A stretch of 64,000 bases of DNA from Micromonospora sp. WMMA1363 (GTDB taxonomy: Bacteria > Actinomycetota > Actinomycetes > Mycobacteriales > Micromonosporaceae). The DNA lies in NCBI RefSeq assembly GCF_030345795.1, contig NZ_JAUALB010000001.1, positions 434,001 to 498,000 of the forward strand, given 5' to 3'. Below the pieces are notes generated by a model. It ran no database searches. It was given only the letters and a program-made list of their open reading frames with translations, and was not told where the DNA came from. Positions 84-33,053 of the stretch are shown here, piece by piece. Within the stretch, counting starts at the first letter, position 1. Each line of letters starts with the position of its first letter. The position numbers were made by a program, and so were the translations under genes.

Positions 84-125
84 AATGACAGGACCCCCGG
101 CGTTCGAGCCGGGGGTCCTGTCATT
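84..125. terminator. Strong hairpin after tgmC
   Basis: Perfect 18-bp inverted repeat (84-101 with 108-125) around a 6-base loop, with GC-rich core ACCCCCGGC. It lies 6 bases beyond the stop of the minus-strand methyltransferase, so it probably ends the RiPP operon. There is no long T run, so efficiency is inferred. Bases 1-83 hold no gene I can support. Confidence 0.75.
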
Positions 126-131
126 TGGGGG

Positions 132-1286
132 TCAGGCAGTCGGGACCGGCCAGCGGACGTCCGAATCCGGGCTGTCAAGCCATGCGTACTGGACGCCCCT
201 AGCAGTAGCGGTCACGCCGATCCGGTCACGGCGCGGCCGGTCGTGGTCAACCCATCCCAGCCACGCCGCCTCCACGGTGTCCCACAGTCGCCGGGACGAC
301 TGCCGGACGTGCAGCACGCCGTCGGCGCCCAGCTTTCCGGTGGCCTGCTCGACACCATCGTGGATGGTCCACCCGATGCGGGTCTGCTGGTCGTCGAAGT
401 GCTCCACGAAATGCAGTTTGGGCAGGTGAAGCAGAAGCCATAGCCGGAAATCAAAGTCGGCTAGCGCCTCAGGGTCAACGTTGCTGGTGCCCAAGTGTGC
501 AGCCTCGTTGGAAACCGGTGGGGGGATCTCGGCTAGGTAGCCGTCAGGCAACGGTTGGCCGGCGGGGTGCATCGCCATGAACAATGCTGGTTCAACATCG
601 AGATTCCCGGACACCTCACCCGGGCCGGTCTTATCTAGTACGGCGAGCGCCCCACCTATGGTGAGCGGGGTGACGATCCGGCCCCCGTCGGCAAGCTGGT
701 CGATCCACGCGGGCGGCACTCCCCGCGTCGCGCATGTGGACAGGATGCGGTCATAAGGTGCTCCGTCCTTGACGCCCAAGGCACCATCCCCGGTGTGCAG
801 CGTGGGCGTGTACCCGATCACGTCCAGTCGGCCGGTAGCCTCAGCGACAAGCCCAGCATCAATGTCGATGCTGGTGACGTTGGCCGCGCCGACCCGATGG
901 CACAGAAGGGAAGTGTTGTAGCCGGTGCCGGTGCCAATTTCTAGGACGCGCTGACCGTCTGCCACGTCCAGGATGTGCAGCATTCTAGCCACCAAGGACG
1001 GTAGTGACGCTGAGCTGGTGACGATCCTCCGGTCACCATCCGCCACCCACTGAGTAATCAGAAAACGATTCTCGTAAACGGCCTGTAGCCACTCGTGCCG
1101 GTGAGTAGAGACGGCTCCGTCCACCACCCGAACAGGACTGTTGTACTCATTCAACGCCCAGTAGCGAGGCACGAAGACATGTCGAGGGGTGGCCTCAAAC
1201 GCTGCCCTCCAACGGTAATCTACTATTGCCGATTCGGCGGCAAGACTGTCCGCCAATTTAGCCGCCTGCGGCTGCCAGTCAGTCAA
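132..1286 (-). CDS. tgmC: PIMT-like methyltransferase of an ATP-grasp RiPP system
   Basis: 384 aa, SAM-dependent methyltransferase related to protein-L-isoaspartate O-methyltransferase. Residues 90-103 carry the PIMT-like TSSASLPSLVARML stretch and 114-122 the SAM-binding VLEIGTGTG motif. The C-terminal third is an extra domain absent from plain PIMT, as in the methyltransferases that accompany ATP-grasp peptide maturases. The start is a TTG one base after the TGA of tgmB, so translation is probably coupled. In the fuscimiditide system the equivalent enzyme methylates an Asp of the cyclised peptide and drives aspartimide formation; the same role here is inference from family and context. Confidence 0.85.
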   Translation of the reverse strand: MTDWQPQAAKLADSLAAESAIVDYRWRAAFEATPRHVFVPRYWALNEYNSPVRVVDGAVSTHRHEWLQAVYENRFLITQWVADGDRRIVTSSASLPSLVARMLHILDVADGQRVLEIGTGTGYNTSLLCHRVGAANVTSIDIDAGLVAEATGRLDVIGYTPTLHTGDGALGVKDGAPYDRILSTCATRGVPPAWIDQLADGGRIVTPLTIGGALAVLDKTGPGEVSGNLDVEPALFMAMHPAGQPLPDGYLAEIPPPVSNEAAHLGTSNVDPEALADFDFRLWLLLHLPKLHFVEHFDDQQTRIGWTIHDGVEQATGKLGADGVLHVRQSSRRLWDTVEAAWLGWVDHDRPRRDRIGVTATARGVQYAWLDSPDSDVRWPVPTA

Positions 1287-1287
1287 T

Positions 1288-2241
1288 TCATTGCCCTTTC
1301 GCCAGCAAGTCAGCTATCGCTGACGTGATTTGCAGTCCCGTCTTGTCTTCGATCCATCCGTATTGCCCGGCAGCGTTACACTCCAGCATCCACCATTTCC
1401 CGGTCGGGTCGACTATGAAATCAAACGCCCCAAACGCTAGCCCAAATTGGGCCATGAACGCGCGCACCCCGCCGGACACCCGACAGGGAACATCAATCAC
1501 CCGGTACGTGAGAGCGTCATAGTCGGACCGGAAGTCAATCTGTGCGGCTGCACTGTGCGCCGTGATTGCTGCGGCGAACATGCGCGACCCCACCACCGTT
1601 AGCCGCACTTCGTAGGCTTTTTGGATAAACGGCTGGAACTGATGCGCTGTCGTTTCGATGGCGCGCATATCGGCCAAATCCGTGTCAGTCAACAGGTGTG
1701 TATTGAGCGCCTTTCGGCCCCCTTCTTCAATGATGGAGCCGAACCCGAACGGTTTCATGATTATTCCGCCCGGGTGCCGGTCGGCGAACCGGCGCACAGC
1801 GTCAGCCTGGTTGGTTACCAGTGTGGGCGGGACCGTCAGGCCGCAGCGTTGGGCCATGGCAAGCTGTGTTGGTTTGTACAGGTCTGCCTGCCGGCCCGGG
1901 TGGTTGACCCAGCGCACCGGCAAAGACCACAGGACACCACCAAACCCGAATTTCGCCTCATGGGTAGCGTGCCACCGCTCAGCCCGCGACATCCCCTCCG
2001 GGACGGCAAACGTGGTGGGGTTGCGGTACCACACAGACCGCAACCCCTCCAACGCTACCGTCCGGCGCTCAGTACGCAACACGCCGCGCCAACCCGTCTC
2101 GGTCATCTCCGCGTCCAACGCGAGGCGGGACGGAAACCACGAGGTGTCACAGCGAAACACGGGAACATTCCGGTGGTTTAGCGCTTCCACTACTGCGTCC
2201 ACCGTCGGGTCGACGTCCGCAGCGAGCACCAGAACGGTCAT
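1288..2241 (-). CDS. tgmB: ATP-grasp peptide maturase (graspetide macrocyclase)
   Basis: 317 aa, ATP-grasp ligase of the kind that forms ester or amide links between Thr/Ser/Lys and Asp/Glu side chains of a ribosomal peptide. Visible landmarks: WVNHPGRQADLYKPTQL near 111-127 at the start of the central domain, IMKPFGFGS near 161-169 (nucleotide-binding Lys), YEVRLTVVG at 210-218, and FDFIVD then WWMLECNAAGQYGW (273-296), where the Glu and Asn are the expected metal ligands. It begins 3 bases after the precursor stop and ends 1 base before tgmC, so the three form one unit. No inactivating change is visible. Confidence 0.9.
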   Translation of the reverse strand: MTVLVLAADVDPTVDAVVEALNHRNVPVFRCDTSWFPSRLALDAEMTETGWRGVLRTERRTVALEGLRSVWYRNPTTFAVPEGMSRAERWHATHEAKFGFGGVLWSLPVRWVNHPGRQADLYKPTQLAMAQRCGLTVPPTLVTNQADAVRRFADRHPGGIIMKPFGFGSIIEEGGRKALNTHLLTDTDLADMRAIETTAHQFQPFIQKAYEVRLTVVGSRMFAAAITAHSAAAQIDFRSDYDALTYRVIDVPCRVSGGVRAFMAQFGLAFGAFDFIVDPTGKWWMLECNAAGQYGWIEDKTGLQITSAIADLLAKGQ

Positions 2242-2244
2242 TTG

Positions 2245-2586
2245 TCAGCTTGACTGGTCCGGCATGAAGTCCGGGGTCCATTCTTCGCCGCCGGTGCTGG
2301 GGCCCCCATCGGTGCTTTGCCCGGTTGTTGCCTTAGTTCCGGCCGCTATGGTCCGGTGCCAGGGCTCACCGTCAGGCGTGACGCCGATTTGACGCTCGGG
2401 GCACCACCGCCACTCCGGCAACGCCGGAGAGGCACTGTCCAGCGGCGTTGCAAACCGGAGTCCGAACGGGCGGATTCCCTGCGCCGACGGGACGCTGTCG
2501 CTCGGAGTCTGGCCGGGCGGCTGTCCAGTAGCGAAACGCTCACTCTCACTAACAAGCGGCGGAGTCAAAACTCCTGAGGCAGTCAT
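2245..2586 (-). CDS. tgmA: Graspetide precursor peptide
   Basis: 113 aa from the ATG at 2586, chosen because GGATCGGAGAG precedes it at good spacing; an in-frame upstream start at 2631 would give 128 aa. Residues 39-45 are RPFGLRF, the conserved leader motif of ATP-grasp-target RiPPs, thought to be bound by the ligase. The tail (about 81-113) is rich in Thr/Ser donors (T84, T87, T88, S91, T92, S97, T98, T104) and acid acceptors (D93, E101, E102, D106, D110). D93-G94 is an Asp-Gly pair and thus a plausible aspartimide site for TgmC. Cleavage point and ring pattern cannot be read from sequence. Confidence 0.85.
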   Translation of the reverse strand: MTASGVLTPPLVSESERFATGQPPGQTPSDSVPSAQGIRPFGLRFATPLDSASPALPEWRWCPERQIGVTPDGEPWHRTIAAGTKATTGQSTDGGPSTGGEEWTPDFMPDQSS

Positions 2587-2990
2587 AGTCTCTCCGATCC
2601 CTCGTCTTTCGTTGACGGACTTGACGTTCATGCGATGCCACGGCCAGCGTTGCAGGGCACGGGCACGGCAAAGTCGGCGGGTGGGGTGTTTAGGCTGGTA
2701 GAAGGTCCAGGAGTTTGAGGATCCGGCGGTTCGTGCGGGCGTTGTATCGCAGCGCGGCGGCGATGTTGGTGGTGTCGTGGATTCTGAGCAGGCTGACCAC
2801 TACGTTTCGTAGGGTTGCCATGACGCGTGGCGTGTTACCGGTCCGGACCCGGGAGGCGTCCTCGCCGAGGGTCACATCCCTCACCCAGTGCAGAACCTCG
2901 ATTCCCCAGTGTTGGCGCACGTACGCGAGCAGGTCAGCGGGGTCGGCCTGCTCGGCGGTGAGGCTGGTGACATACAGCATCGCCTGGTAG

Positions 2991-5008
2991 CCCGGCTTCG
3001 ACGGTTGGCGGGCATGCGGCGGTGGCGGATCTGCGGGTTGACCTGGGGCGATGGGCGTGGGGAGGCTTCGGGGCCGTTTGCCCACGGCTCCGGATCCTGT
3101 TTTCCCAGCTCAGCGGCTATTCGGCGGTCTTGAGGCTGCTCATCTTTGGCGGGAGCGGGACACCGCAGTCGGTGAAGAGTTTGGTCTGGGTGTCGGTGAG
3201 CCGGGTGGTCTGCTGGAGGCTGCCGGCCGGGCCGGAGAGGGTGACCTGGTGGATCCGGCCGAGTTCGGCGGCGATCTTGGGCCAGGACTGCTGGGTGCGG
3301 CGCTCAGCGACGCGGATCAGTAGCAAGGCGAGCCAGCACAGCAGCACGTGAGCGCGTATCCGCTCGTCGAGGCGGTGGTAGACCGGCCGCAGGTCGAGGG
3401 TGGATTTCAGGGTGCGGAAGGCGCGTTCGGCTTCGAGGAGGTTCTTGTAGCCGAGCGCGATGTCCTCGGCGGACAGGTCGGGGTCGCTGGTGGCGAGGAG
3501 GTACTTGCCGTCCAGGCGGGCCTCGGCGGCGACCTTGGCGGTGTCGATGGACAGCCGTCCGGTGGTGGGGTGCTGCTTGAGCCAGCGGCCGAGGGCAGGG
3601 TGGTCGCGCAGCGCGCACTCGGCCTTGCGGTGCGGGGCGTCCGAGGGGGCCGTGGGGCGCTTGCCGGTCTTGGCGGCCTTGGCCTTCGCCTTGGTCGCGT
3701 CGGCTTCCCGGGCGGTCTTGATGCGCGTCAACTCCTCGCGGATCGCGGTGAGTTGGTCTTCGCGTCGGGCGGCATCGCGTTCGGCCTCGGTGGGGTTGTG
3801 GCAGATGATGAAGCGTCTGCCCTCGTCGCCGTCGAGGCGGACCTCTTTGACGCGCAGGTTGTCGCGTACTTCCTGGTAGCGGCCCTGGCGGGCCAGGGCC
3901 TGGTCGGCGCGGTGGGAGCCTTCGCGCATCTTGATGCCGGTGATGTAGTGGCCGCCGGCCCGGCGCAGGTAGGACTGGTTGGCCTCGGAGGAGAATCCGG
4001 TGTCGCAGACGGTGACCACCCGGCCGAGCCGCCAGTCGCGCAGGCCGTCCTTGACCTCGGTGATCACGGTCTGGTCGTTGGTGCCGCCGGGCCAGGTCCA
4101 GCAGCGCACGGGGATGCCCTCGCGGGTGACGGCCAGTCCGATGACGATCTGGGGCAGGTCCTTGCGGTGGTCCTTGGAGTGCCCGTACTGGCGCAGGCTG
4201 GAGCTCTCGCCGTCCGGGTCGTCCGCAGTGTCGCGTTCGAAGTAGGTGGAGGTGGTGTCGAAGAAGACCAGGTCGACTTCGAGGTTGAGCAGGTGTGCGG
4301 CGGAGAAGAACACCGCTTCCTGCACGGCGGCGTGGACATCGGCGGCGACGAGCAGGTCCATGGCGCGGTAGGCGTGCTGCTCGGCCAGTGCGTCCAGGCC
4401 GGGGATGACCTGGTCGCGGGTGGCCCACTCGGCGGCGGCGAGCTTGGAGGCGGGGGCGATGGCCCGGTTGGCGACCAGCGCGAAGATCGTGCGCTCGACG
4501 TCGGTGCGGAACTTGCGCCCGTCGATGCGGGAGGCCAGGGCGGTGTCGATGCCCAACAGTTTCCACAGCCCGTCGAGCAGCCAGCTCGCCCCGAGCGGCC
4601 GGGAGAACTCCACCGTCAGCGGCCCGGCCTCCTCGGCGCCCAGCGACGCGGCGACCTCGTCCTCCTCGCCGAGGTAGCGGTTGATGGAGGCGACCAGGCG
4701 GCGCAACCCGTCGACGTCCAGACGGTCCTCGCGGCCGAAGTTGACCAGCACCTCGGCCTGCGTGGTGCCGCCGACCCGTCGGTTGTGGGCGAGTTGGAGG
4801 TATCGCACCACCGACCCGTCCTTGTTCCGCCGTTGGATCTTCCGCAAGTACATGCCCGCATCATCAGACAACAAGCCTGGCCAGAACAAGACCCACGGCA
4901 AATCCGTTTGCCCACGCCTCTGGACAGTCTCCGATGGGTGCCAGCCCTCTCACCTGCACGGATCCGCCGCCGATCCGCCCCGCATGCCCACCAACTGTCG
5001 AACTCGGG
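2991..5008 (-). mobile_element. IS1634-family element nested in the ISAs1 transposase
   Basis: About 2.02 kb. The left end (CCCGGCTTCGACGGTTGG at 2991) and the reversed right end (CCCGAGTTCGACAGTTGG from 5008) match at 24 of the first 28 positions. Flanks share GGTAG(C): 2986-2990(91) and 5009-5013(14). Whether the duplication is 5 or 6 bp depends on one shared C. It carries one transposase gene on the minus strand. Confidence 0.9.
3117..4853 (-). CDS. IS1634-family transposase
   Basis: 578 aa from the ATG at 4853 (MYLRKIQRRNK); longer starts fall in less conserved sequence. IS4-superfamily DDE transposase of the IS1634 group. The first catalytic Asp is likely in VFFDTTSTYF and the second in VTVCDTGFSS; the C-terminal part has the conserved NLLEAERAFRTLKSTLDLRP block with the expected Glu. 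The reading frame is open throughout, so the enzyme is probably functional. Confidence 0.9.
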   Translation of the reverse strand: MYLRKIQRRNKDGSVVRYLQLAHNRRVGGTTQAEVLVNFGREDRLDVDGLRRLVASINRYLGEEDEVAASLGAEEAGPLTVEFSRPLGASWLLDGLWKLLGIDTALASRIDGRKFRTDVERTIFALVANRAIAPASKLAAAEWATRDQVIPGLDALAEQHAYRAMDLLVAADVHAAVQEAVFFSAAHLLNLEVDLVFFDTTSTYFERDTADDPDGESSSLRQYGHSKDHRKDLPQIVIGLAVTREGIPVRCWTWPGGTNDQTVITEVKDGLRDWRLGRVVTVCDTGFSSEANQSYLRRAGGHYITGIKMREGSHRADQALARQGRYQEVRDNLRVKEVRLDGDEGRRFIICHNPTEAERDAARREDQLTAIREELTRIKTAREADATKAKAKAAKTGKRPTAPSDAPHRKAECALRDHPALGRWLKQHPTTGRLSIDTAKVAAEARLDGKYLLATSDPDLSAEDIALGYKNLLEAERAFRTLKSTLDLRPVYHRLDERIRAHVLLCWLALLLIRVAERRTQQSWPKIAAELGRIHQVTLSGPAGSLQQTTRLTDTQTKLFTDCGVPLPPKMSSLKTAE

Positions 5009-6178
5009 GGTAGCTGGTCTTGCCTTTGACGGTGACGGTCCGTTCGATCAGGAACACCTGCGCGACGTGCGGGAAGTTCACCTCGGGCGGAGCGGGTATG
5101 ACCTGGATGGTGCGTCGCTCGTGCCGGCCCCGGTCGTCGTCCACGCTCCACGCGGTGACCGGCACCCCGGCCCAGTCCAGAGCGTCGAGCCGGTCGAACA
5201 GGGTGGGCTGGTTGTCCAGCACCGGGAAGATGAAGTGCGCGTCCTTGACCTGGCGCAGCCATCGGGCATGCTTACGCTGCGTCTGCATCGCGTCGGCCGT
5301 CACCACCTGGCCGGCCAGCTCGAGGGGCGTCAACAGCGGTACGAACGCGGTGATCTCATTGCTTTTGCCGTCGACCTGGCGCTGGGCGAGTACCACCCCC
5401 ACGCATGACAACGCGGCGAGCAGGTGCGGCGCCGGGTTGCCGGCGCTCTTCGCACCGCGGCTGGTCTTGCCGTCCACCGCGACCTGGATCAGCCGCGGCC
5501 GGTGCCGACCGCGTGTACTGGCCCGCCAGCGGCGCTGGCCAGCGGCCTTGGCCCGGCGACGGGCCTTACGACCTCGCGGGGGCCGTACCCCGGTCCGCGC
5601 CTTCGCCCGCTGCGCCGCCAGGGCACGCCGCTGCAGCCACCGACCCATCACCGCGTCCAGCACGTCACCGTCGAGCCGGGCGCACAACCCGCGCACCGTC
5701 TTCTCATCCGGACCGACATACCGGCCGGTCGCCGGAGCCACCCGGGCGCCGAACACCTTCAGGGTCTTCTGTGAACACCCGGCGATCCACTGCCCGATCG
5801 CGTACACCGACGTATTGCCGGCCAGCACCGCCGCCAGGGCCAACCCGACCACCGTCGGCAACCGATGCCGGATCCCTCGCGCGTCCCGCGGATCAGAAAC
5901 CTCCGACAGCGCCGCGACCAGGCTTTCCTGCCTGTTACGGCCCAACAGGACCGGTCGTGTCTGCTCGTCCGGCTGGTCTTGGACAGCGTTGATCAGCAAT
6001 GATGCAGGCGCGGGCACGGTACTCCACAGGGTGATCCGAAGGCGTAGACAACCTCAAGATCACCGGAGCCGTGCCCGCCCCGTCAAATCCACTCTGGACC
6101 ACAACACAAAGTCCTCACACGAGCACTCTCCGACTTTGCCGTGCCCGTGCGTTGCAGGGCTAGCCCCGAGGGACGCGA

Positions 6179-7244: not shown

Positions 7245-8012
7245 ATGAATCATGCAGTCGTCGCGGCGATGGCCGAGGCCGGCGAGACCGCCGACAGCCT
7301 CGCAGCTCAAATCGGCGTTGACCCAAAGACCGCAGCGAAGTGGGCGAGTCGCGGACGGATTCCGCAGACCAGGCACCGCGCGAAGGTCGCGGCGATTCTC
7401 AAGCGAGATGTCGAGGACCTCTGGCCGGACGTTCTGAAGCGCCGCGAGCCGGCCTGGTTCCGGCCGTGGGTAGACATTGAGCGTGAGGCGGTCTCACTCC
7501 GTACGTTCGAGCTAGCCTGGGTGCCCGGCCTCCTCCAGACTGAGGCCTACGCGCGGGCAACGCTCGCCGGGGAGACGTTGAGTGCCGAGGAGACCGACCA
7601 ACTGATCACGGCGCGCGTTCAGCGTCAGACGATCCTGCGCCGGGATCACGCGCCAATGTTCGTCGCGGTGCTCGATGAGCTGATCCTCCGCCGATCCGCA
7701 TACGGGGACCGCGCGCTCATGCGCGAGCAGTGCGAGCACGTAGCGGCGTACGCAGAGCTACCGAACGTCTCCGTTCACGTCGTTCCGGCGTCGGTCGGCA
7801 TGTACCCGGGTCTCGGCGGACCGTTCACGCTCGCAGAGCTGGACAACGGTACGACGGTGGCTCATGTGGATGGTCAAGCCCAGGCGCAACTGGTCGAAGG
7901 CATCACGGATGTTGCTACGCTGAGTCGACGGTGGGAACGCATCCGCGGGGAAGCTCTCTCGCGGTCGCAGTCCCTAGACATGCTCAGGGAAGCGGCAAGA
8001 TCATGGACCTGA
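7245..8012 (+). CDS. XRE-family regulator with DUF5753 domain
   Basis: 255 aa from the ATG at 7245 (AGGAGG at 7232-7237). N-terminal helix-turn-helix (AEAGETADSLAAQIGVDPKTAAKWASRG) followed by a DUF5753-type sensor/effector domain with the usual WVPGLLQTEAYARA and LDELILRRS motifs. This family is commonly paired with DUF397 proteins in actinomycetes and some pairs act like toxin-antitoxin or developmental regulators. Here it is divergent from the minus-strand operon and could control it from the 203-bp gap 7042-7244; that is inference. Confidence 0.85.
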   Translation: MNHAVVAAMAEAGETADSLAAQIGVDPKTAAKWASRGRIPQTRHRAKVAAILKRDVEDLWPDVLKRREPAWFRPWVDIEREAVSLRTFELAWVPGLLQTEAYARATLAGETLSAEETDQLITARVQRQTILRRDHAPMFVAVLDELILRRSAYGDRALMREQCEHVAAYAELPNVSVHVVPASVGMYPGLGGPFTLAELDNGTTVAHVDGQAQAQLVEGITDVATLSRRWERIRGEALSRSQSLDMLREAARSWT

Positions 8013-9208: not shown

Positions 9209-9513
9209 ACGACCACCCCCCGCCGTCCAGGCACGGTATCGCCGTGACGCCTGTCCGCGTCGTGGCGGTTATCTGTACGCAGCATCCTGTTTTCGGCCTC
9301 CAAATGGTCCACACGCCGCTCAAGAGCCCGCAGTGCCGCCTCTAGCCGGTCCGCTCTCGCCTTCTGCGCCTCAGCCTCACCACGCCACAAAACGGCTGTT
9401 GTCTCGTCGGCGGACGACCGCATCCGGGCCCACAAAATACCCACCGCGGCGCCCATTGTCAGGGCCGCTATAAGCATCCCGAGAGCGGACCCGGCCAGCT
9501 CTATCGGGCTCAC
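9181..9513 (-). CDS. Small membrane protein with coiled coil, phage lysis region
   Basis: 110 aa from the GTG at 9513, whose GTGA overlaps the stop of the upstream gene; a TTG at 9543 is less likely. One hydrophobic helix near the N-terminus (IELAGSALGMLIAALTMGAA) is followed by a long charged coiled coil (QKARADRLEAALRALERR onward). The layout recalls spanin-like or accessory lysis proteins, but no family is recognised. Confidence 0.6.
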   Translation of the reverse strand: MSPIELAGSALGMLIAALTMGAAVGILWARMRSSADETTAVLWRGEAEAQKARADRLEAALRALERRVDHLEAENRMLRTDNRHDADRRHGDTVPGRRGVVVWVGISTRH

Positions 9514-10025
9514 AGGGAAATCCACTCGGCGATCAGGAAACAACCGCCGTAGTCGGTGCGCGCGTTAAGGCTCGACCCGGAACTTTGATTACCCCTGATC
9601 TCCAGTCCCTCTCCCGCGTCCATGTACAGAACCCATGACGCGTTGAGGCGGATAAACCCGGTGGTGGAGGGGATAGACAAAGATGATACCGGGGTTCCGG
9701 AGTCGGTCGTGTACAGAAACACTGCACGTGCGCCGGATGCGTTACCGTCCCACGCATTACCGTATGTCACCCGGTAGCGGCCCGCTGTTTGCACCACGAT
9801 ACGGCCGTTGCTGACATCAGCCATCCCATCATTGTTTTCCAGTACAGTATTGAGGTCATGCTTCGTCGTCACCGACGGTGGGATGGACTGATCCGTGTTA
9901 CGCCACAGGTGGCAGAACGGCTTGTAGTAGACCGATCTTTCGATTGCGAACTTGGTATGTTCATTGAGACTAGCGGCAGTTACCAACTCCCCGGCGCTGA
10001 AACCCGTCAACGTCGGTATAGTCAT
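9510..10025 (-). CDS. Phage tail-tip protein with jelly-roll-like domain
   Basis: 171 aa. The C-terminal 100 residues alternate short beta strands (GRYRVTYGNAWDGN, LNASWVLYMDAGEGLEI, GGCFLIAEWISL) like C1q/TNF-type jelly-roll domains found on phage receptor-binding proteins. The N-terminus (FSAGELVTAASLNEH) is typical of actinophage minor tail proteins. Likely a host-recognition or decoration protein; exact role not determined. Confidence 0.6.
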   Translation of the reverse strand: MTIPTLTGFSAGELVTAASLNEHTKFAIERSVYYKPFCHLWRNTDQSIPPSVTTKHDLNTVLENNDGMADVSNGRIVVQTAGRYRVTYGNAWDGNASGARAVFLYTTDSGTPVSSLSIPSTTGFIRLNASWVLYMDAGEGLEIRGNQSSGSSLNARTDYGGCFLIAEWISL

Positions 10026-10057
10026 CGGACCTCCGAAACCTTCTGGGCAACAAAAAT

Positions 10058-10075
10058 GGGGCCCCTAAGGGCCCC
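10058..10075 (-). terminator. Terminator after the tail-tip gene
   Basis: GGGGCCC stem with CTAA loop; on the minus strand it is followed by ATTTTTG. It falls between the tail protein (ending 10093) and the next minus-strand gene (starting 10025), dividing the late transcript. Confidence 0.7.
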
Positions 10076-10092
10076 GTTCTGACTTGAATGTG

Positions 10093-12603
10093 TCAGTAAA
10101 CGGCTATGCAGGTTTCGGTATCGAGTCTCCCGGAAGGCCCCTCCAAAACCCACCCGTCGGAGCGGCCAGCATCGGAGACGGTGAACTCCGTCGTCCACTC
10201 CCACAGGGTGCCGTTACGCACAATGCCCACGTTGACGCCCTCCACGAAGCAGTCCAGCGCGGGCGCCGGGGCGGACGGCGGCAGCGCCGCCAGCGCCAGG
10301 CGGTCTGAGACGTCGGCGGATGCTGCTAGGGCCCGTTGTGGGGCGTCGCCGTCACCGGTGAGTGTGTGCGCTTGCACCCGTAGGGTGTCGCACCTGGGGG
10401 AGGCATCCCGGTACCGGTGCAGCGTCCAGGACGCCGCGTCCTGAACCTCGCTAGGGTCTGCGACGTCCCGGCGGATCGTCAAAGCCCTCACACCGTGCTG
10501 CGCGATGCTGCCCTGATCCTCGGCCGTGCGGCGGAGCCCCGTCGACCGCTCCGCCGTGATGCTGTTGTGCACGTGGCTGTCGTCGAGGGCGAACCTCAGG
10601 CCAGGAGTCCACTCTGTCAGCGTCCACCGGACCGGGGCCCCGACCCGACGGTGCCGGGAGTGATAGGTGACCTCACCGGCCGGGCCCATCATCAGGACAC
10701 CGCCCGCGTCCCCGGCCGTCCCGGATGCGACCTCCCAGCCGTCAGCGTGGTTGTCCCACCGGGGCGACAGTAGCTCCGACAGGGGCGCGTCCAGGGCCCG
10801 CGACCCCGACCAGCCCAGCCCGTCCAACAGCCGATGGATACGGTCCGTTTCCGTGTCGACATGCCGATCCCACCCAAAACCGTCTAGCACCTGGTGCAGC
10901 CCATCCGGGATGTCCATAGCCGCAATCAGATGATTAATGGTGCCCTGTGGGGCATCCGCGTACCCGACACTGCCGCTGGACAACACGTACCGTCGACCCG
11001 CGAACAGGCCATCACCCACGACAGGGCTAGTCATGACACCCGGCGTTGAGCTGTAAAAGCCGTCCAGCTCAACACCGTTCACCCAGATCTGCGCGTACGG
11101 TTTCTGCCACCGGGAGCCAATCCCAAACCGCGCCCCAATGTGATAGACCGTCCCCGGTTGGATGACACCAGGGTTGGTGATTGCTCGGACGGCGCTAGCT
11201 TGTCCCGCATACGCCTCAGCAACAACAGTGCCATCGGACCGAATCTGGACGTGGGAGTGCACGTGTCCTGTAGAGGTGCGTGACTGCCACAGCGTGTGAT
11301 AGTGCGTCAAACTCTCCGGTCGATACCACAGATCCACGGTCAGTGTGCGGCACGCCCCAACAGCAGGACTGCCATGCCTCGACAGTTCCAGGACCGATCC
11401 TGCTAGGTAACTCTCAGACCTGTTATCGAACCCCCCGGATTCGCTGCCGTCGGCGTGCACCATCGTTTTTGTGGTGCCGAAACCTGCGGCCCCGTCGTCC
11501 GGGGGGTTAATGCAGTCCCGCACCCTCAACGGCAGTCCGGGCCCATACTCGGGGTATGTTGTTGTCGCTTCAGTCGATTCGACCGCCGGCCAATACCACA
11601 GTCGGGGGGACAACACACCGATAGCGCCCGTATTAGCATCGACTGTTGGAGACGGCGGAATGCTGTTCTGCGCCGCCCAATCACGTACGGCCATGCGGTA
11701 CGACGACGGTATCGGTTGTGTGAGCAACGCCGACATGTCGACACAATCCGCAGTCAACGTGGACAGTGGACCTGTGTATTCCTGCGACCAGCGCTCAACA
11801 TAGCCACGGAAAATCGGGTAGACGCCCGACAGGTGGGCAACCTCGGCAGCCCCGATATTGTCCAGCCGAACTTTGGGGGCCGTGACCAGCACGTCAACCG
11901 GCGCTAGGATCATCATTCGCATAACCCCGTCATACGGGGCGGTGTCAGTCGCAGACAACGTTACCCAACCGGCTCCCGGTGGTGCGGGGTCAGTCCACAC
12001 GACTTGAGTCTTTGACGTCTGGTCGTAGCTTTCATACGTCAACCCGAGATGACAGTTAGCTCCCGAGCCCACATTGCGCATGTCAACCCGGACGGAGACC
12101 AACTGTCCGGCTTCGACGGGTATCACGTCGGAATCCCCGCCCAGGCCAGAACGATATGCAGTGTCGGTGCCAGTGCCACCACGGAACCGGAAAACTGCTT
12201 GTCCGGCGTCACTGTCAAACGCAGCGATAACCTCGCCGGTTTGGGCGTTAGCCCACGTCTCCCCGCCATCGGATGAGCGTTGCCAACGGGGAGCCGCCAA
12301 CACGCCTTCGATTGAGGGATGGACACATTCGGCAGGTAGCCAATTGTCATCCGCTATCCCATAGACGCGGATGGGCTGGCGAGGTTTCACGGCAGCCAGG
12401 TTGAGATCCCCGGCGCCGGTTCCGGTGTCAGTGTCGGTGTCGAAAACGACAGCAGCCGTCCCCGCCTCGATCCTGTCAAGCTCGTACGTGCGGCCCCGCC
12501 GACACCATATCGAGGCAACCCAATCGGTTACATCAGTCCACCTGAAGATTGGATCGGTGATCCGCGCCCCCGACGCACCTACCTCCACCCGAATACTCGG
12601 CAT
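10093..12603 (-). CDS. Phage tail-tip protein (Dit/Tal-like) with LamG-like domain
   Basis: 836 aa from the ATG at 12603. Sequence upstream of this ATG belongs to an IS, so longer starts are spurious. The N-terminus (MPSIRVEVGASGARITDPI, then RGRTYELDRIEAGTAAVVFD) is the standard start of actinophage minor tail proteins following the tape measure. The middle has a concanavalin/LamG-like stretch (CRTLTVDLWYRPESLTHYHT, WVNGVELDGFYSS). The IS begins 11 bases upstream of the ATG; before insertion the ATG overlapped the tape-measure stop as TGATG, so it has lost coupled translation and its ribosome site. Confidence 0.75.
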   Translation of the reverse strand: MPSIRVEVGASGARITDPIFRWTDVTDWVASIWCRRGRTYELDRIEAGTAAVVFDTDTDTGTGAGDLNLAAVKPRQPIRVYGIADDNWLPAECVHPSIEGVLAAPRWQRSSDGGETWANAQTGEVIAAFDSDAGQAVFRFRGGTGTDTAYRSGLGGDSDVIPVEAGQLVSVRVDMRNVGSGANCHLGLTYESYDQTSKTQVVWTDPAPPGAGWVTLSATDTAPYDGVMRMMILAPVDVLVTAPKVRLDNIGAAEVAHLSGVYPIFRGYVERWSQEYTGPLSTLTADCVDMSALLTQPIPSSYRMAVRDWAAQNSIPPSPTVDANTGAIGVLSPRLWYWPAVESTEATTTYPEYGPGLPLRVRDCINPPDDGAAGFGTTKTMVHADGSESGGFDNRSESYLAGSVLELSRHGSPAVGACRTLTVDLWYRPESLTHYHTLWQSRTSTGHVHSHVQIRSDGTVVAEAYAGQASAVRAITNPGVIQPGTVYHIGARFGIGSRWQKPYAQIWVNGVELDGFYSSTPGVMTSPVVGDGLFAGRRYVLSSGSVGYADAPQGTINHLIAAMDIPDGLHQVLDGFGWDRHVDTETDRIHRLLDGLGWSGSRALDAPLSELLSPRWDNHADGWEVASGTAGDAGGVLMMGPAGEVTYHSRHRRVGAPVRWTLTEWTPGLRFALDDSHVHNSITAERSTGLRRTAEDQGSIAQHGVRALTIRRDVADPSEVQDAASWTLHRYRDASPRCDTLRVQAHTLTGDGDAPQRALAASADVSDRLALAALPPSAPAPALDCFVEGVNVGIVRNGTLWEWTTEFTVSDAGRSDGWVLEGPSGRLDTETCIAVY

Positions 12604-12614
12604 CACAGGCCAGT

Positions 12615-13606
12615 GAGCTGATCTCAGCGACGCGAATGTGTTGATTGGTACGACACGGGCGAACCGGGTCACGCCGGACGGTGCTGGAAGTGGGCGTGGA
12701 GCCATCGATAGACAGGTCTTTGCGACAAGATCCACGTCTTCGAGAGGGCTCCACGTGATTGCCTATCGTGCCATGGTCGACGTCCCCAGGGAACTCGTGC
12801 AGTACCTCGGCCGGCTGCTTGCCGCGCAACGCCGAGCCAAGGGGACACGGCGCGACACCCGCGCGTTGACCTGCTTCTACCAGGCACTCCTGGTGCTCGT
12901 CTGGTTCCGCAAAGGCGAGGACGCGACCCTGCTGGGCGCCGGGTTCGGCATCTCCCGGGCCACTGCGTACCGGTATATGGCCGAGGGTGTCGCAGTGTTG
13001 GCCGCGCAGGCCCAGGATCTACACACAGCCCTGCGCCGGGTCGCCGACGACGGCTGGTCGTACGTGATCCTGGACGGAAAGCTGTTCGACTGCGACCGGG
13101 TGGCCGAGACCACCCTCAGCGTCAAGGGCGACACGATCGACGCCTGGTATTCCGGCAAGCATCGTGACTTCGGCGGAAACGTTCAAGCGGTCATGCGCCC
13201 GGACGGCCTGCCGGTGTGGACCTCCGCGGCGATGCCGGGGCATCTGCACGATCTGACCTGCGCCCAACAGCAGGGCATCACGGCTGCCCTGAACTGGGCC
13301 GCCTCCGAACTCGACCTGCCTACCCTGGCCGACTCCGGTTACGAAGGCGCAGGTCAAGGCGTCAAAGTCCCGGTCAAGCAGCCCACCGACGGGCAGCGGC
13401 TCGCTCCCGACAACCGCGCCTACAACCGGCTGCTACGCGGACTGCGCTGGCAGGGCGAACGCGGCTTCGCGATCCTGGTCGGACGCTGGAAAACCCTCCG
13501 GCATACCACCGCCAGCCCACACCGGATCAGCGACATCCTCGCCGCCGCACTCCACCTGACCCATTTCGAGTACAAGTACCTACCGCAAAGTCGCTGAGAT
13601 TACTTC
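12615..13606 (+). mobile_element. IS5-type element, copy 1 (992 bp)
   Basis: Imperfect terminal repeats GAGCTGATCTCAGCGAC (left) and GAAGTAATCTCAGCGAC (right, reversed), 14 of 17 matching. Target duplication AGT at 12612-12614 and 13607-13609. Copies 2 and 3 both have ACT, so the target is ANT, which suits the ISL2 group of the IS5 family. It lies two codons before the end of the tape-measure gene. Confidence 0.9.
12755..13597 (+). CDS. IS5-family transposase, copy 1
   Basis: 280 aa from a GTG at 12755 with GAGAGG upstream. DDE transposase of the IS5/DDE_4 type: an N-terminal region with helix-turn-helix (LLGAGFGISRATAYRYMAEG), first Asp in VILDGKLFD, middle SGKHRDFGGNVQAV, second Asp in LADSGYEGAG, and a C-terminal RGFAILVGRWKTLR block with the following helices. 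Open and apparently intact. Same protein as at 17047 and 19007. Confidence 0.9.
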   Translation: MIAYRAMVDVPRELVQYLGRLLAAQRRAKGTRRDTRALTCFYQALLVLVWFRKGEDATLLGAGFGISRATAYRYMAEGVAVLAAQAQDLHTALRRVADDGWSYVILDGKLFDCDRVAETTLSVKGDTIDAWYSGKHRDFGGNVQAVMRPDGLPVWTSAAMPGHLHDLTCAQQQGITAALNWAASELDLPTLADSGYEGAGQGVKVPVKQPTDGQRLAPDNRAYNRLLRGLRWQGERGFAILVGRWKTLRHTTASPHRISDILAAALHLTHFEYKYLPQSR

Positions 13607-15661
13607 AGTAACACCCCCATTGCGTCTGCCAGTACGGACGATCTCGTCCCGCACCGTGAGCGCGATCGTCCGCGCTAGATCCCGTTCCGCCGTGACACTG
13701 CCGGCCACGTGCACCACCACCGTTGGCGCTGCCGGCCGTGCCCCGGCCCGGTGCAGGGCGACGCCGGCGGCCCCGCCCACGGGGACCACCGGTACACGAG
13801 CTGCGTCGTGGGCGTCTCCCATCGCGCCCTGGACAGCCCGCACCAGCACCCGCCGGCGGGACGTGACACCCTCCGCCATGGCCTCTGGGATAGATCGACC
13901 GGAGTACAGCGTCCAACCCTTGCCGGCAAACGGGCCCTCTAGGGCCGGGGAGAACGGCAGCATCCGGCGGGCGGAGGCGAGCACATCCCCGATCGCGTCT
14001 TTCACCCGGCCACTCATGGCGCGGATGCCGTCAATCAGCCCTTGGATGATCCGCCGGCCCGAGTCACGCAGCCACCGGCCCACACCGGACAGTGCGCCCA
14101 GGACGCGGGACCGCATCCCCATTACGACAGCGACAGCGCCGTTGACGGCCGACCGAATGACAGTCCGCCAGAACCCCCAGTAGGCTTTCGTGGCGTTGAC
14201 GACCGCAGACCACGCTTGAGGTATCGCCGTCCGAAACCAACCAATGACAACCGCGACCGCGTTTCTGACGGCGATCCACGCGCCGGTTACGACACGCCGG
14301 AACGTGTCGCTATTCCGCCACGCGTACACCAAACCTGCCACGAGAGCGGCCAACGCCAGAGCCACTAGGCCGATAGGGTTAGCGAGCATCACCACGTTAA
14401 GTGCCGCCTGAACAGCCGTGTAGATTTTCGCGGCAACCGTGATCGTACCGAGGACCACCGCCAGCGACCCCAACCCGACCACAACCGGCTCAATCCATTC
14501 ACGATTCCGGACCATCCACTGTCCAAACTCAACGATCTTAGGGATAGCCTCGGTGAGTTTCCCTACGATCGCAAGTTCAACCTTACGGCGGAACTGATCT
14601 AGCTGCGCCCCGGCGGACTGTTGCAGCGCCTTCCCCAAATCCGCAGATGCTCCGGCGACGTCACCGATAGCCGCAACAGCCTCGGACGGGTCAAGCGCAT
14701 ACAACGCCTCACCCAAATCTTCAGCTTTTGTGCCGAAGAGTGCGACAGCGGCCTGTGACCGTTTCACGGGATCTTCAATGCCGCGCAGTCTATCCAAAAC
14801 AGTGTCCAAGCCTCGGGTGGCTTCGTCGCCTCCCTTGCCGATTTGCGCGGCCATCGTGGACGCGTCAAGCCCTACAGCCCGGAAACCGTCAGCGGTCAAT
14901 TTTGTCCCGTCCACCGCGCGGACGCTGAACTCTTTCAGCGCGTCGGCCACGGTGTCAGCGTCCCGGGCTCCCGCCTGCAACCCCTGAGACAACAGACCCA
15001 TAGCGGTTGCACCATCAACACCCAACTTACGGAATTGGGTACCGTACTCGGACACCGCATCCAAAAGATCCTCGGCGTGATCACCCGTGACCGCGAAACC
15101 CCGGCTAAGCTGATCAATTGCGTCATCGGCGGTATCCGCCAACCCGGTACGCACCATCTGACCAGCCGCCCGCGCTGTCTGCGTCACATCCTGGTCAAAC
15201 GCTTCCGCCAAATTCAAGGCTTTACCGGTGATCCGCTCAATGTCGGCATCTGCTGTCCCCTCCGGGATCAGCCCGGACGACATCACCCGGCGGATGGCAT
15301 CCATGTTTTCGCTCATGGAACGGCCGAAACCGCCCGTGTAAAGCCGGCCCGCTACCTCACCCAACCGCCCGGCCTGTTCCGGCCCGAGCTGCGCCGCGAA
15401 CTTCGCTCGCGCCCTATCCAAATCGAGTGCTCCGGCGAACGCGACACCCAGACCGGCAGCAGCGGCGGCCAAACCCGCAAGCGCGAACGTCGAATGGTCA
15501 GCAGCCGAGGAAACCCGACGACTGAAACGGTCCATCCCGGATCCCGCCACGCCGCTACGCTTATCAACGTCCGACAACCCGGCGCCCAAGGATTTAAGCG
15601 CAGACATCGCCGTTTTAGCGTCACCGGCAACAACAACCTTGAGTTGCCTCGTCTCAGCCAC
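13580..15661 (-). CDS. Phage tail tape measure protein
   Basis: 693 aa from the GTG at 15661 (GGGGAGG upstream), overlapping the end of the tail-chaperone T frame. The N-terminal half is helical and contains the phage tape-measure region (MSENMDAIRRVMSSGL, AAGQMVRTGLADTADDAID). Around residues 390-450 lie hydrophobic helices (GLGSLAVVLGTITVAA, NPIGLVALALAALVAGLVYA), then GVGRWLRDSGRRIIQGLIDG repeats usual in tape measures. The last eight residues (EVISATLR) come from IS copy 1; the original end was VTGL. The protein is thus almost unchanged. Confidence 0.85.
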   Translation of the reverse strand: MAETRQLKVVVAGDAKTAMSALKSLGAGLSDVDKRSGVAGSGMDRFSRRVSSAADHSTFALAGLAAAAAGLGVAFAGALDLDRARAKFAAQLGPEQAGRLGEVAGRLYTGGFGRSMSENMDAIRRVMSSGLIPEGTADADIERITGKALNLAEAFDQDVTQTARAAGQMVRTGLADTADDAIDQLSRGFAVTGDHAEDLLDAVSEYGTQFRKLGVDGATAMGLLSQGLQAGARDADTVADALKEFSVRAVDGTKLTADGFRAVGLDASTMAAQIGKGGDEATRGLDTVLDRLRGIEDPVKRSQAAVALFGTKAEDLGEALYALDPSEAVAAIGDVAGASADLGKALQQSAGAQLDQFRRKVELAIVGKLTEAIPKIVEFGQWMVRNREWIEPVVVGLGSLAVVLGTITVAAKIYTAVQAALNVVMLANPIGLVALALAALVAGLVYAWRNSDTFRRVVTGAWIAVRNAVAVVIGWFRTAIPQAWSAVVNATKAYWGFWRTVIRSAVNGAVAVVMGMRSRVLGALSGVGRWLRDSGRRIIQGLIDGIRAMSGRVKDAIGDVLASARRMLPFSPALEGPFAGKGWTLYSGRSIPEAMAEGVTSRRRVLVRAVQGAMGDAHDAARVPVVPVGGAAGVALHRAGARPAAPTVVVHVAGSVTAERDLARTIALTVRDEIVRTGRRNGGVTEVISATLR

Positions 15662-16102
15662 GCCGCGCCTCCCCGTACTCGCGCATATACTCTGTGAACG
15701 CCTGAATCTCAAGCAGAGTCAAACGGCGCACCTGATCAGGCGACATCCCGTAAAAATGGCAGATGGCGGCTACATCCCGTAGCCGCCTCAGTCGTTTCCC
15801 CGGTCACGCTCCGGGGCACTATCAATCACCAGAGAGGTAATCCTGGTGCGGCGCGCGTCCTCAATGCCGAAACCCGGATCGGTTTTCCGCCGGGTCAACC
15901 AAACCAAACACGTTTGCGCCTTAGCGGACAGCCGGATCGTCATTTCCGGACGCCCCTTAGCGTCGAAAACCCGGTTCCCGTCCACGTCCACAACAGGATG
16001 CGGTCTGAAAACCTCGTCGAACGGCCGTCCCGTGTATTCCTCGAAATCCTCCATGTCGCCGAAATCGAACGAGTCAGGATCGAACACAAACTCCACGTAC
16101 AC
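15654..16102 (-). CDS. Tail assembly chaperone GT, made by -1 frameshift
   Basis: About 149 aa. Shares residues 1-103 with G, then slips at 15794-15800 and continues in the -1 frame to the TGA at 15654-15656. The extension reads RLRDVAAICHFYGMSP then DQVRRLTLLEIQAFTEYMRE, the usual T-domain style (short helical segments after FYGMSP). The T frame has no ribosome site of its own and overlaps the tape-measure start by 8 bases. G:GT balance normally sets tail assembly on the tape measure. Confidence 0.8.
15788..16102 (-). CDS. Tail assembly chaperone G
   Basis: 104 aa, zero-frame product, small acidic protein (VEFVFDPDSFDFGDMEDFEE) just upstream of the tape measure, the standard place for the siphophage G chaperone. 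GTG start at 16102, 2 bases after the gp10-like gene. The slippery heptamer GGGAAAC sits two codons before its stop, so part of the ribosomes should continue into the T frame. Confidence 0.75.
   Translation of the reverse strand: MYVEFVFDPDSFDFGDMEDFEEYTGRPFDEVFRPHPVVDVDGNRVFDAKGRPEMTIRLSAKAQTCLVWLTRRKTDPGFGIEDARRTRITSLVIDSAPERDRGND
15794..15800 (-). promoter_or_regulatory. -1 ribosomal slippery site GGGAAAC
   Basis: In the G frame the codons are CGG GGA AAC, so the heptamer has the exact X XXY YYZ phase. Slipping back one base pairs GGG and AAA and enters a 46-codon open frame ending at 15654. The downstream GGCGGCTACGGGATGTAGCC can fold as a stem (GGCTAC/GGCGGCTAC type), a possible stimulator. 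Confidence 0.8.
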
Positions 16103-16906: not shown

Positions 16907-17898
16907 GAGCTGATCTCAGCGACGCGAATGTGTTGATTGGTACGACACGGGCGAACCGGGTCACGCCGGACGGTGCTGGAAGTGGGCGTGGAGCCATCGA
17001 TAGACAGGTCTTTGCGACAAGATCCACGTCTTCGAGAGGGCTCCACGTGATTGCCTATCGTGCCATGGTCGACGTCCCCAGGGAACTCGTGCAGTACCTC
17101 GGCCGGCTGCTTGCCGCGCAACGCCGAGCCAAGGGGACACGGCGCGACACCCGCGCGTTGACCTGCTTCTACCAGGCACTCCTGGTGCTCGTCTGGTTCC
17201 GCAAAGGCGAGGACGCGACCCTGCTGGGCGCCGGGTTCGGCATCTCCCGGGCCACTGCGTACCGGTATATGGCCGAGGGTGTCGCAGTGTTGGCCGCGCA
17301 GGCCCAGGATCTACACACAGCCCTGCGCCGGGTCGCCGACGACGGCTGGTCGTACGTGATCCTGGACGGAAAGCTGTTCGACTGCGACCGGGTGGCCGAG
17401 ACCACCCTCAGCGTCAAGGGCGACACGATCGACGCCTGGTATTCCGGCAAGCATCGTGACTTCGGCGGAAACGTTCAAGCGGTCATGCGCCCGGACGGCC
17501 TGCCGGTGTGGACCTCCGCGGCGATGCCGGGGCATCTGCACGATCTGACCTGCGCCCAACAGCAGGGCATCACGGCTGCCCTGAACTGGGCCGCCTCCGA
17601 ACTCGACCTGCCTACCCTGGCCGACTCCGGTTACGAAGGCGCAGGTCAAGGCGTCAAAGTCCCGGTCAAGCAGCCCACCGACGGGCAGCGGCTCGCTCCC
17701 GACAACCGCGCCTACAACCGGCTGCTACGCGGACTGCGCTGGCAGGGCGAACGCGGCTTCGCGATCCTGGTCGGACGCTGGAAAACCCTCCGGCATACCA
17801 CCGCCAGCCCACACCGGATCAGCGACATCCTCGCCGCCGCACTCCACCTGACCCATTTCGAGTACAAGTACCTACCGCAAAGTCGCTGAGATTACTTC
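16907..17898 (+). mobile_element. IS5-type element, copy 2 (992 bp)
   Basis: Same ends, length and orientation as copy 1; target duplication ACT at 16904-16906 and 17899-17901. Inserted inside the tail-tube gene. Confidence 0.9.
17047..17889 (+). CDS. IS5-family transposase, copy 2
   Basis: 280 aa, identical in translation to the copy at 12755; domain description is given there. Open and apparently functional. Confidence 0.9.
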   Translation: MIAYRAMVDVPRELVQYLGRLLAAQRRAKGTRRDTRALTCFYQALLVLVWFRKGEDATLLGAGFGISRATAYRYMAEGVAVLAAQAQDLHTALRRVADDGWSYVILDGKLFDCDRVAETTLSVKGDTIDAWYSGKHRDFGGNVQAVMRPDGLPVWTSAAMPGHLHDLTCAQQQGITAALNWAASELDLPTLADSGYEGAGQGVKVPVKQPTDGQRLAPDNRAYNRLLRGLRWQGERGFAILVGRWKTLRHTTASPHRISDILAAALHLTHFEYKYLPQSR

Positions 17899-18512
17899 AC
17901 TCAACGAGATTTCGGAAACACCGAACGGGGCCCCGCCAATATCGACACTACCGCCGACGAAGGTGAAGAGTTGCCCGGTGGTGGAATAGGTGGGCGTGGA
18001 GGGCGCGTACGCACCCGGACCCGCCCCGATGTACTCCCGGGCGAAATCAAACTCAAACGACAACTCAAGGACACCATCAACAGCGTTCGACAGTTCCCAC
18101 GACGCGATTTTGCCACCCTCGTACGTCCACGGGTGGAGGGTGCCGGCGTTGTCGACCCGACCCACCTGCACAGTCAAACTCTTACCGGCGAGATCTCCCA
18201 CCGTGATTGTGTGCGGCGTGACATCCCCATCCGGGGCGCCAGTCGACACCGCCCCGAAAGCGTGCACCAACAGCACGCCGAGCCCCGAATCCTGGCCTTC
18301 GATCTTTAGATCCCCACCGGCCCCTTTAGGGTTCGGCGCGAACCGGTCCCGGTGCAGCACCCTCTGACCGGCCCGGTACGCCTCGGAGTTGATGCGTTCA
18401 TACTTCCCGGCGAACCCCTCCGACACCATCTCTAGGAAGCGAGCCGGAGCCACCGGCGTGCCGTAGGTGGTTTCCTCAGCAAGCCCGACATATGAGTCAT
18501 GCACCGACGGCA

Positions 18513-18668
18513 CTAGTCACCCCTCTTGCTGGTTTTGGTCGTGAACGCAGAGCCAAGCTTTCCCGCCAACTCCGGCGGCACCTCGACCGGCTGTCCCCGG
18601 ACAAAAACAAAACCCCCGCCGGTGACGGCGGGGGCGTGACCGTTGTAGACAACAACTACGGTCGGCAT
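18513..18668 (-). CDS. Small phage protein between tail terminator and tail tube
   Basis: 51 aa, MPTVVVVYNGHAPAVTGG start and a Lys/Thr-rich end (TTKTSKRGD). ATG at 18668 overlaps the tail-terminator stop by 13 bases, and its TAG shares one base with the GTG of the tail tube, so it is embedded in the coupled late operon. Function unknown. Confidence 0.65.
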   Translation of the reverse strand: MPTVVVVYNGHAPAVTGGGFVFVRGQPVEVPPELAGKLGSAFTTKTSKRGD

Positions 18669-22444: not shown

Positions 22445-23053
22445 TTAAGCGGCCAGACTGGATAGCCGTAGACGCATCCTCAGCGCTTCCCCGGCAACAT
22501 CCGGCAGACACTGTGACCGGTCGGCGGCAGCAATAGCAGCCGCGCAATCAACCGCCCGCCTACTGATCGTGCTGGGGCTGGACGGATACGCCGGATACGT
22601 CACCGGAGACACATCAAACAACTTCATGGCCCGGATGGTACGAAGCGGAAACCCATCCGCGTCTCGCGTCCAACCCTCCCCACTGGGCGCAACCAGGAAA
22701 CCAAAAGATGACTGCGTGACGTCGCCACGCTCAAGAGCAACCAGCAGATCCCGCACATACGATTGCCGCTCATCCACGAAGATTTCGTACTCAAGCCCCG
22801 TGGAATCCTCAGCCAGCCGCAACGTCCCCGCACGATTCCGACCCAAAATCAGATTCGCGTCGTGGTTGACAAGCGCCCGAATGTCGTCCTCGGCGATCGA
22901 CTCTCGGCCCGCCCCGGAAGCAACCATCTCCCGGAAGCCGCCCAAATCCTCACTACGCGCATCAAACGTGTACGCGTACCCGACAACCGCGACACGATTA
23001 TCACCGACCGAACGGGTTGCTACCTCAGATTGCAGAATCCGACGCTCCATCAT
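22445..23053 (-). CDS. HK97-family prohead protease
   Basis: 202 aa from the ATG at 23053 (another ATG follows directly). S78-type serine protease: VVGYAYTF, FREMVASGA, catalytic His in ALVNHDANLILGR, and catalytic Ser in TQSSFGFLV followed by LFDVSPVTYPAY. It matures the prohead by trimming the capsid delta domain. Overlaps the portal gene end. Confidence 0.9.
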   Translation of the reverse strand: MMERRILQSEVATRSVGDNRVAVVGYAYTFDARSEDLGGFREMVASGAGRESIAEDDIRALVNHDANLILGRNRAGTLRLAEDSTGLEYEIFVDERQSYVRDLLVALERGDVTQSSFGFLVAPSGEGWTRDADGFPLRTIRAMKLFDVSPVTYPAYPSSPSTISRRAVDCAAAIAAADRSQCLPDVAGEALRMRLRLSSLAA

Positions 23054-24224: not shown

Positions 24225-24373
24225 TCGTCATCCACCGCCCAACCAATGAGGCACAACAGGGCACCACCGACAAGCAGACCGAGCCACACGGCGAGCACGA
24301 ACCCCGCCGCTGTGATCGCGGCCAGCCCGGCGACCTGTAGACCGGTAGCCCGATGGGCGCTAATCGTCGTCAT
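24221..24373 (-). CDS. Small hydrophobic phage protein between terminase and portal
   Basis: 50 aa from the ATG at 24373, with hydrophobic helices (VAGLAAITAAGFVLAVWLGL then VGGALLCLIGWAVDD). ATG overlaps the end of the terminase gene and its stop overlaps the portal ATG. A membrane role is inferred. Confidence 0.6.
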   Translation of the reverse strand: MTTISAHRATGLQVAGLAAITAAGFVLAVWLGLLVGGALLCLIGWAVDDE

Positions 24374-32943: not shown

Positions 32944-33053
32944 GTGCGGAGCCTAACACTCGGGCCGGAGGGAGAGCGTGCACAGGCGGTTGTGAAACAC
33001 GATCCTCGGACGTCAGCGACGAGGTCATGGCCGCCGTCGGCTGACCGATGAGA

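Follow-up and report, generated by a model that had tools for sequence, protein, structure and literature searches.

A predicted graspimiditide cassette within a prophage of Micromonospora sp. WMMA1363

The four characterised graspimiditides, fuscimiditide, amycolimiditide, albusimiditide and SsfA, are associated with an RPFG-type leader, an ATP-grasp ligase and a PIMT-like methyltransferase (PMC13001092, PMC12291112, PMC13003496). They possess Thr-Asp esters and an Asp-Gly aspartimide site in a loop, and a fifth bond, to the C-terminus, was postulated for SsfA (PMC13001092). The bonds of fuscimiditide join Thr-3 and Thr-7 to Asp-22 and Asp-18 (PMC12291112). RPFG was named the key recognition sequence (PMC13003496), and the clusters counted in surveys numbered 962, 1326 and 1432 (PMC13001092, PMC10787088). 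Here and below, statements on the literature draw on excerpts of the cited papers. Similar to the loci of these four peptides, a precursor with an RPFG-type leader, an ATP-grasp ligase and a PIMT-like methyltransferase are encoded together in the stretch of DNA analysed in this study (the window; 64,000 nucleotides of Micromonospora sp. WMMA1363, RefSeq assembly GCF_030345795.1, contig NZ_JAUALB010000001.1, positions 434,001 to 498,000). Different from them, this cassette is on a prophage. We put at about 70% the probability that it directs graspimiditide biosynthesis and is accessory cargo of a temperate actinophage, its chemistry, ring map, expression and function being predictions. We think that the chemistry is a variant of the known graspimiditide kind and that it is the phage setting which would surprise a specialist.

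The cassette and its assignment to group 13

All three genes are on the minus strand. They encode, in this order, the precursor (2245..2586; 113 amino acid residues), the ATP-grasp ligase or graspetide maturase (1288..2241; 317 residues) and the PIMT-like (PAMT) methyltransferase (132..1286; 384 residues). The gap between the precursor stop and the ligase ATG is three nucleotides, and that between the ligase stop and the TTG start of the methyltransferase is one nucleotide. The precursor possesses the leader motif RPFGLRF at residues 39-45 and a core at about residues 84-110. Its score against NCBIfam TIGR04186 was 41.3 bits (cut-off 25) and that of the ligase against TIGR04187 was 394 bits (cut-off 350), so that both passed. 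Solved graspetide ligases also match the ligase by sequence, the best match in the Protein Data Bank (PDB) being 9bou (E 6.5e-53). A scan of the PDB with the precursor profile found no graspetide. The precursor start was placed at ATG 2586 rather than at the start of a 128-residue open reading frame (ORF) from 2631, because a conserved GATCGGAGA box immediately precedes this ATG in all five aligned loci, which are the window copy of the cassette (w), its sister copy in the same genome (w2), L069, L040 and L041. A single-sequence search returned 12 homologues of the precursor, all of which kept the RPFG of the leader. Finally, a hairpin of 18 stacked pairs (84..125, minus strand) is located 3' of the methyltransferase stop. 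Its folding energy is -41.9 kcal/mol (z -7.9), and none of 200 shuffles was as good; it lacks a T-run, and a simple terminator scan listed no terminator there.

By leader, ligase and gene order, the cassette was confirmed as that of a group-13 graspetide (graspimiditide), so far as sequence comparison can assign it. The first-pass annotation, made from the letters alone, had described such a trio ending in a strong hairpin and had proposed a comparison with known graspetide groups. Its gene order and hairpin were borne out, group 13 is the outcome of the comparison, and its residue numbering fits the 113-residue precursor from ATG 2586.

The methyltransferase combines PF01135 with an extra C-terminal domain and is encoded beside the ligase. 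Judged from its sequence, it is a divergent subtype. Different from the enzymes of the four characterised graspimiditides, it reads WVDHDRP in place of the published WXXXGXP motif. The Gly of this motif was found in none of eight loci read that share the core type described below, seven of which had Asp and one His. The other types in the same genome read WHRWHRP (c-type, without Gly), WTAHGKP (b-type, with Gly) and WADAGRP (d-type, with Gly). Thus, absence of the Gly is not peculiar to that core type, as the c-type copies also lack it. Among models of anti-phage defence, mad2 was matched by the methyltransferase region alone of this protein, and neither the precursor nor the ligase had any match.

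The core peptide and its predicted rings

The core is of the type TxxTTGxSTDGGPSTGGEEWTPD, referred to here as EE-type for its Glu-Glu pair, E101-E102. All 12 precursors from the single-sequence search kept T88, D93-G94, T98 and E101-E102. A search with the precursor profile gave 447 matches, and the core counts that follow rest on the 120 of these matches that were listed. The EE-type core was present in 66 of the 120; the other 54 lacked it and were by eye mostly of an Asp-rich type. One of the matches listed, P0113, had a similar loop without the Glu pair, and some of those with the EE-type core already carry the JGI name "putative ATP-grasp target RiPP" (RiPP, ribosomally synthesised and post-translationally modified peptide). 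A 2023 graspimiditide survey reportedly recognised eight core clusters.

Among the 66 EE-type cores, Ser or Thr was found at position 84 in 60, at 87 in all 66, at 88 in 65 and at 91 in 63. Asp was found at position 106 in 65 and at 110 in 55, P0006 and P0011 being among those without D110. For the 65 cores with equal loop length, position 98 was Thr in 62, position 93 was Asp in 64 and Glu in one, and position 94 was Gly in all. The last two counts support D93-G94 as the site of an aspartimide, which had been suggested from the window copy alone, and D93 is likely to be that residue.

Because three well-kept donors (T84, T87 and T88) face three well-kept acceptors (E101, E102 and D106), the conservation predicts a nested set of esters (T88-E101, T87-E102 and T84-D106) that would enclose 12 loop residues. 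This ring map has no part for S91 and T98, two further conserved positions. Plesiocin-type graspetides possess adjacent Thr and adjacent Glu residues, a TT...EE arrangement that gives nested bonds. Different from these, the precursor here has a single core with a long loop containing the Asp-Gly site, and there is a methyltransferase in the cluster. If T88-E101 is the inner bond, the 12-residue loop is inside the range of 10-12 stated for graspimiditides, which also have Asp-Gly in the loop (PMC12291112).

The same chemistry could give other rings, in which D106 and D110 would be esterified with T84 and T88 and the Glu pair would be only structural or required by the methyltransferase. The Thr-Asp esters of the characterised graspimiditides (PMC13001092) are consistent with such rings, and T84/T88 and D106/D110 are each four residues apart, as are Thr-3/Thr-7 and Asp-22/Asp-18 of fuscimiditide (PMC12291112). 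However, D110 is the less constant acceptor, being Asp in 55 of the 66 listed cores and absent from P0006 and P0011, against 65 for D106 and 66 for the Glu pair, by which these cores were chosen. We therefore regard these other rings as doubtful, and prefer the map with T84, T87 and T88 bonded to E101, E102 and D106.

The first-pass annotation had also suggested that the core may be new. This held insofar as the EE-type core, with its conserved Glu-Glu pair, differs from the cores of the four characterised graspimiditides, for which Thr-Asp esters are described (PMC13001092); it did not hold insofar as the type is shared by 66 of the 120 homologues listed. The EE-type core is therefore no orphan. 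It is one more type within a diverse set, since most precursors of actinobacterial cluster 2 in a 2022 survey already match no described core motif (PMC8939145). That survey also names one Salinispora arenicola precursor, of another pattern (PMC8939145).

In the proposed pathway, the RPFG leader would bring the precursor to the ATP-grasp ligase, which would join hydroxyl and acid side chains of the core. The methyltransferase would then methylate D93 in the closed loop, and the D93 methyl ester would collapse to an aspartimide, from which isoaspartate may form by hydrolysis. It is in the lysogen that the peptide would presumably be expressed.

Prophage A, its slot in related phages and the state of the window copy

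The prophage that carries the cassette (prophage A) spans about 49 kb and encodes a serine integrase. The cassette is flanked on one side by genes for tail, capsid, portal and terminase proteins and on the other side by those for exonuclease, helicase, primase and integrase. Another portal and capsid set is located near the second cassette copy, in a further prophage of this genome (prophage B). From the cassette through the portal and capsid genes, the aligned pieces of regions A and B were 93-99% identical, and on the other side they were 66-80% identical. An independent phage, the 34-kb IMG/VR contig L081, contains an EE-type precursor, a ligase 73% identical to that of the window and a methyltransferase. 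Ten of its 23 called ORFs were scanned; a tape measure and virion proteins are encoded on one side of its cassette, and an excisionase-like protein, a primase, a DnaB-like helicase and an exonuclease on the other. Of the 23 ORFs, 19 matched prophage A and 18 matched prophage B (E 1e-5) in the same order, with identities ranging from 31 to 84%. In all three phages the cassette is thus at one slot, between the tail and replication modules.

Four sibling phages (L103-L106), whose tail protein was 66-69% identical, gave no match in a ligase scan at E 1e-4, and the trio is absent from them. All four, however, contain, between a regulator and an excisionase-like gene, a match (E 6e-15 to 9e-18) to the C-terminal part of the methyltransferase, over about 130 residues. 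In L103, L104 and L105 the matching protein is 171-200 residues long and lacks a methyltransferase domain. Next to it, L103 encodes a JmjC-type protein and L105 a class I methyltransferase. The lone homologues at L103:18488-19003, L104:16740-17342 and L105:18160-18729 contain a WxxxGRP motif.

Within the window, the slot-side gene of prophage A encodes a DUF5753 regulator (7245..8012, plus strand; PF19054), the counterpart of the L081 regulator. The following genes are all on the minus strand: tail and virion proteins that are collinear with those of L081 and broken by an insertion sequence (IS) at 12638-13594 (9277..16084), a tail tube protein (17872..18513; PF18906), a capsid protein (21158..22363; PF05065), a portal protein (23025..24224; PF04860) and the endonuclease part of the terminase large subunit (24360..25280; PF20441). 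The serine integrase (C1:417,922-419,595) and the left junction (about C1:417,897) are outside the window. The chromosomal sequence shared with relatives ends within 10 bases at the left junction in all four relatives compared, and by the same comparison chromosomal sequence resumes at the right junction at 33009..33044. In two of the four (G159 and G168) the two flanks meet, the right one, from window position 33,009 on, being located exactly where the left one stops; for G149 and G292, right-flank matches began only at about window position 36,370. These two junction positions give the element its length of about 49 kb, IS insertions included. An exact repeat was considered as the att core and rejected, the longest identical stretch between the ends being only 9 bp, and the junctions therefore rest on the relatives. 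The gene at the junction is presumably YebC-like. The G+C content in 4-kb steps was 0.62-0.68 in the first 32 kb of the window and 0.68-0.74 in the rest.

Seven maturase loci of the genome, on contigs C1 and C4, were above the TIGR04187 cut-off. They represent four core types, three of them in pairs, and paired loci were 95-97% identical over about 2.5 kb. Among 160 genomes of the genus, at least one match at E 1e-60 was found in 26, and the next highest count was four. EE-type precursors occur in six of 354 genomes of the family. An eighth, sub-cut-off locus at the start of C4 was set aside, as it lies in an overlap of the C4 ends, of which 38 kb are 99.8% identical (1-38167 and 105514-143715). 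This would fit a circular element of about 105 kb whose assembly overlaps itself. The C4 element carries a c-type graspimiditide locus. The two loci of the b pair (C1:2088k and C1:4206k) encode almost the same enzymes and differ in their upstream region and leader.

The sister copy w2 is located at C1:4.393-4.395 Mb. Its precursor and ligase are identical to those of the window copy, its methyltransferase is 94% identical, and none of the three frames is interrupted in either copy. An ISAs1-type element (2657..6150) with 21-bp inverted ends begins 71 bp upstream of the window-copy ATG. It is interrupted by an IS1634-family transposase gene (3117-4901) and bordered by an 8-bp duplication, GTTGCAGG, at 2649-2656 and 6151-6158, and its target site is intact in the sister copy. 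Because the 96.6% repeat at window 88-2658 ends sharply, w and w2 were first considered copies of a small mobile element. This idea was rejected: the right edge is the ISAs1 insertion, an IS lies beyond the left edge of the sister, and the homology continues past both edges. The short repeat of the b pair is not covered by this explanation. Further transposase genes in the window are at 12638-13594, 16930-17886, 18890-19846, 25370-26785 and 27374-28789. Identical copies in the prophage include a 319-residue type, three times in the window and five times in region A, and a 472-residue type, twice. Prophage A is probably decaying.

These insertions bring up the possibility, to which we give only slightly less than an even chance, that expression comes from the sister copy alone, the window copy being a silenced relic. 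The position of the ISAs1-type element, so close to the ATG and at a site left intact in the sister, is consistent with silencing, as are the five copies of one IS in region A, of which the compared region B has none. Against this stand the open frames of both copies with their identical precursor and ligase proteins, the ability of an IS to supply a promoter, and the presence of an IS near the sister copy too (4395622-4397037, beyond the hairpin end).

The first-pass annotation as a whole was thus partly supported, on the class of the product and on the likely aspartimide site, and contained neither the prophage, the second copy and the upstream IS nor the divergent subtype of the methyltransferase.

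Carriage elsewhere and the possible role of the peptide

A wider ligase scan of IMG/VR identified 14 loci, including L081. Phage-gene neighbours were scanned for four of them (L090, L096, L091 and L098); several of the nine others are at contig ends and could be host DNA. L090, a 63-kb metagenomic viral contig unrelated to the L081-type phages, contains a complete trio of RPWG type with regulator genes (9579-12045) between terminase and portal, and is therefore a second phage type with the full trio. In L096 a precursor and a ligase are near tail genes, 3-5 kb from the contig end, and in L091 a trio adjoins an integrase. The L098 locus is near a head protease gene, and the precursor and methyltransferase patterns found neither gene there. 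For further EE-type precursors, an IMG/VR scan with the precursor alignment found the L081 contig only, and a DNA-pattern scan gave four matches, none of which was a precursor. In a phage collection, the L081 tail protein had no match, and the ligase query found two distant ATP-grasp matches, at KF114876.1:59174-60070 (Leptospira phage, 26% identity) and MT835913.1:8890-9765 (phage, 31%). A plasmid collection contained 70 records with ligase relatives, all below 60% identity; carriage of such ligases by plasmids is therefore common.

Small clusters were detected by antiSMASH in 13 of 2112 actinobacterial prophages; the excerpt names class I lanthipeptides and type III polyketide synthases among them and does not mention graspetides (PMC10023795). 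Similar to these, the cassette described here is a small cluster, probably of RiPP type, as phage cargo. Different from them, it is of graspetide type and its slot recurs in three collinear phages. Co-expression of RiPPs and phage genes is treated in PMC11118758. No report of a graspetide on a phage or prophage was found in the open-licence literature searched, which is weak evidence of absence because only open-licence papers were covered.

Several observations weigh against phage cargo of the graspimiditide kind. First, the methyltransferase scored 297.4 bits against TIGR04188 and did not reach the cut-off of 380, its residues 11-366 being aligned with profile positions 1-362 of 363. Second, the cassette was not found to include a transporter or protease gene. 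Third, the constancy of E101 and E102 (66/66) is partly a selection artefact, because the rows were picked by having the pair. Fourth, prophage A, riddled with IS copies, may for this reason be defective. Fifth, phage copies formed one ligase lineage in 34% of 200 bootstrap trees of 10 rows, from which the G352 ligase was left out, and this tree does not settle a single origin of the phage copies. Finally, L081-type phage proteins were not detected near the EE-type cassettes of G149, G165, G214, G352 and G316, the neighbourhoods in G214 and G352 being contigs of 18-20 kb only. The one exception is a 47-residue match to the L081 regulator in G352. Carriage of the cassette is thus not restricted to phages.

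The five cassettes without L081-type phage genes would also fit the chance transfer of an ordinary chromosomal graspimiditide cluster into phage DNA, helped by IS traffic and with no role for phage or lysogen. So would the IS elements near the cassette on both sides in prophage A, and the ligase of w, which is nearer to chromosomal ligases of Salinispora (80-82%) than to that of L081 (73%). Chance entry is nevertheless unlikely in our view. Three collinear phages use one slot, and the tail proteins of one of them have an identity of only about 60%; all four sibling phages have a homologue of the methyltransferase C-terminal domain in that slot; and the second phage type, L090, has the full trio.

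If the cassette is accessory cargo of the phage, its likeliest role is lysogenic conversion, in which the peptide would act against competing bacteria or phages. More tentatively, graspimiditide cassettes might be recurrent fitness cargo of actinophages. Unrelated temperate phages would have taken them up, and in this phage family the uptake would have been at one fixed slot, which in the siblings is occupied by a methyltransferase C-terminal-domain homologue alone. The aspartimide peptide would act in conflict between phages or between lysogen and competitor.

The Glu-Glu core predicts Thr-Glu esters, which are not described for the four characterised graspimiditides in the excerpts cited. 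According to a 2026 review, the bigger challenge is to tie aspartimide-bearing RiPPs to biological function (PMC13001092). The recurring prophage slot offers a concrete setting, and a testable hint, for what such peptides may do.

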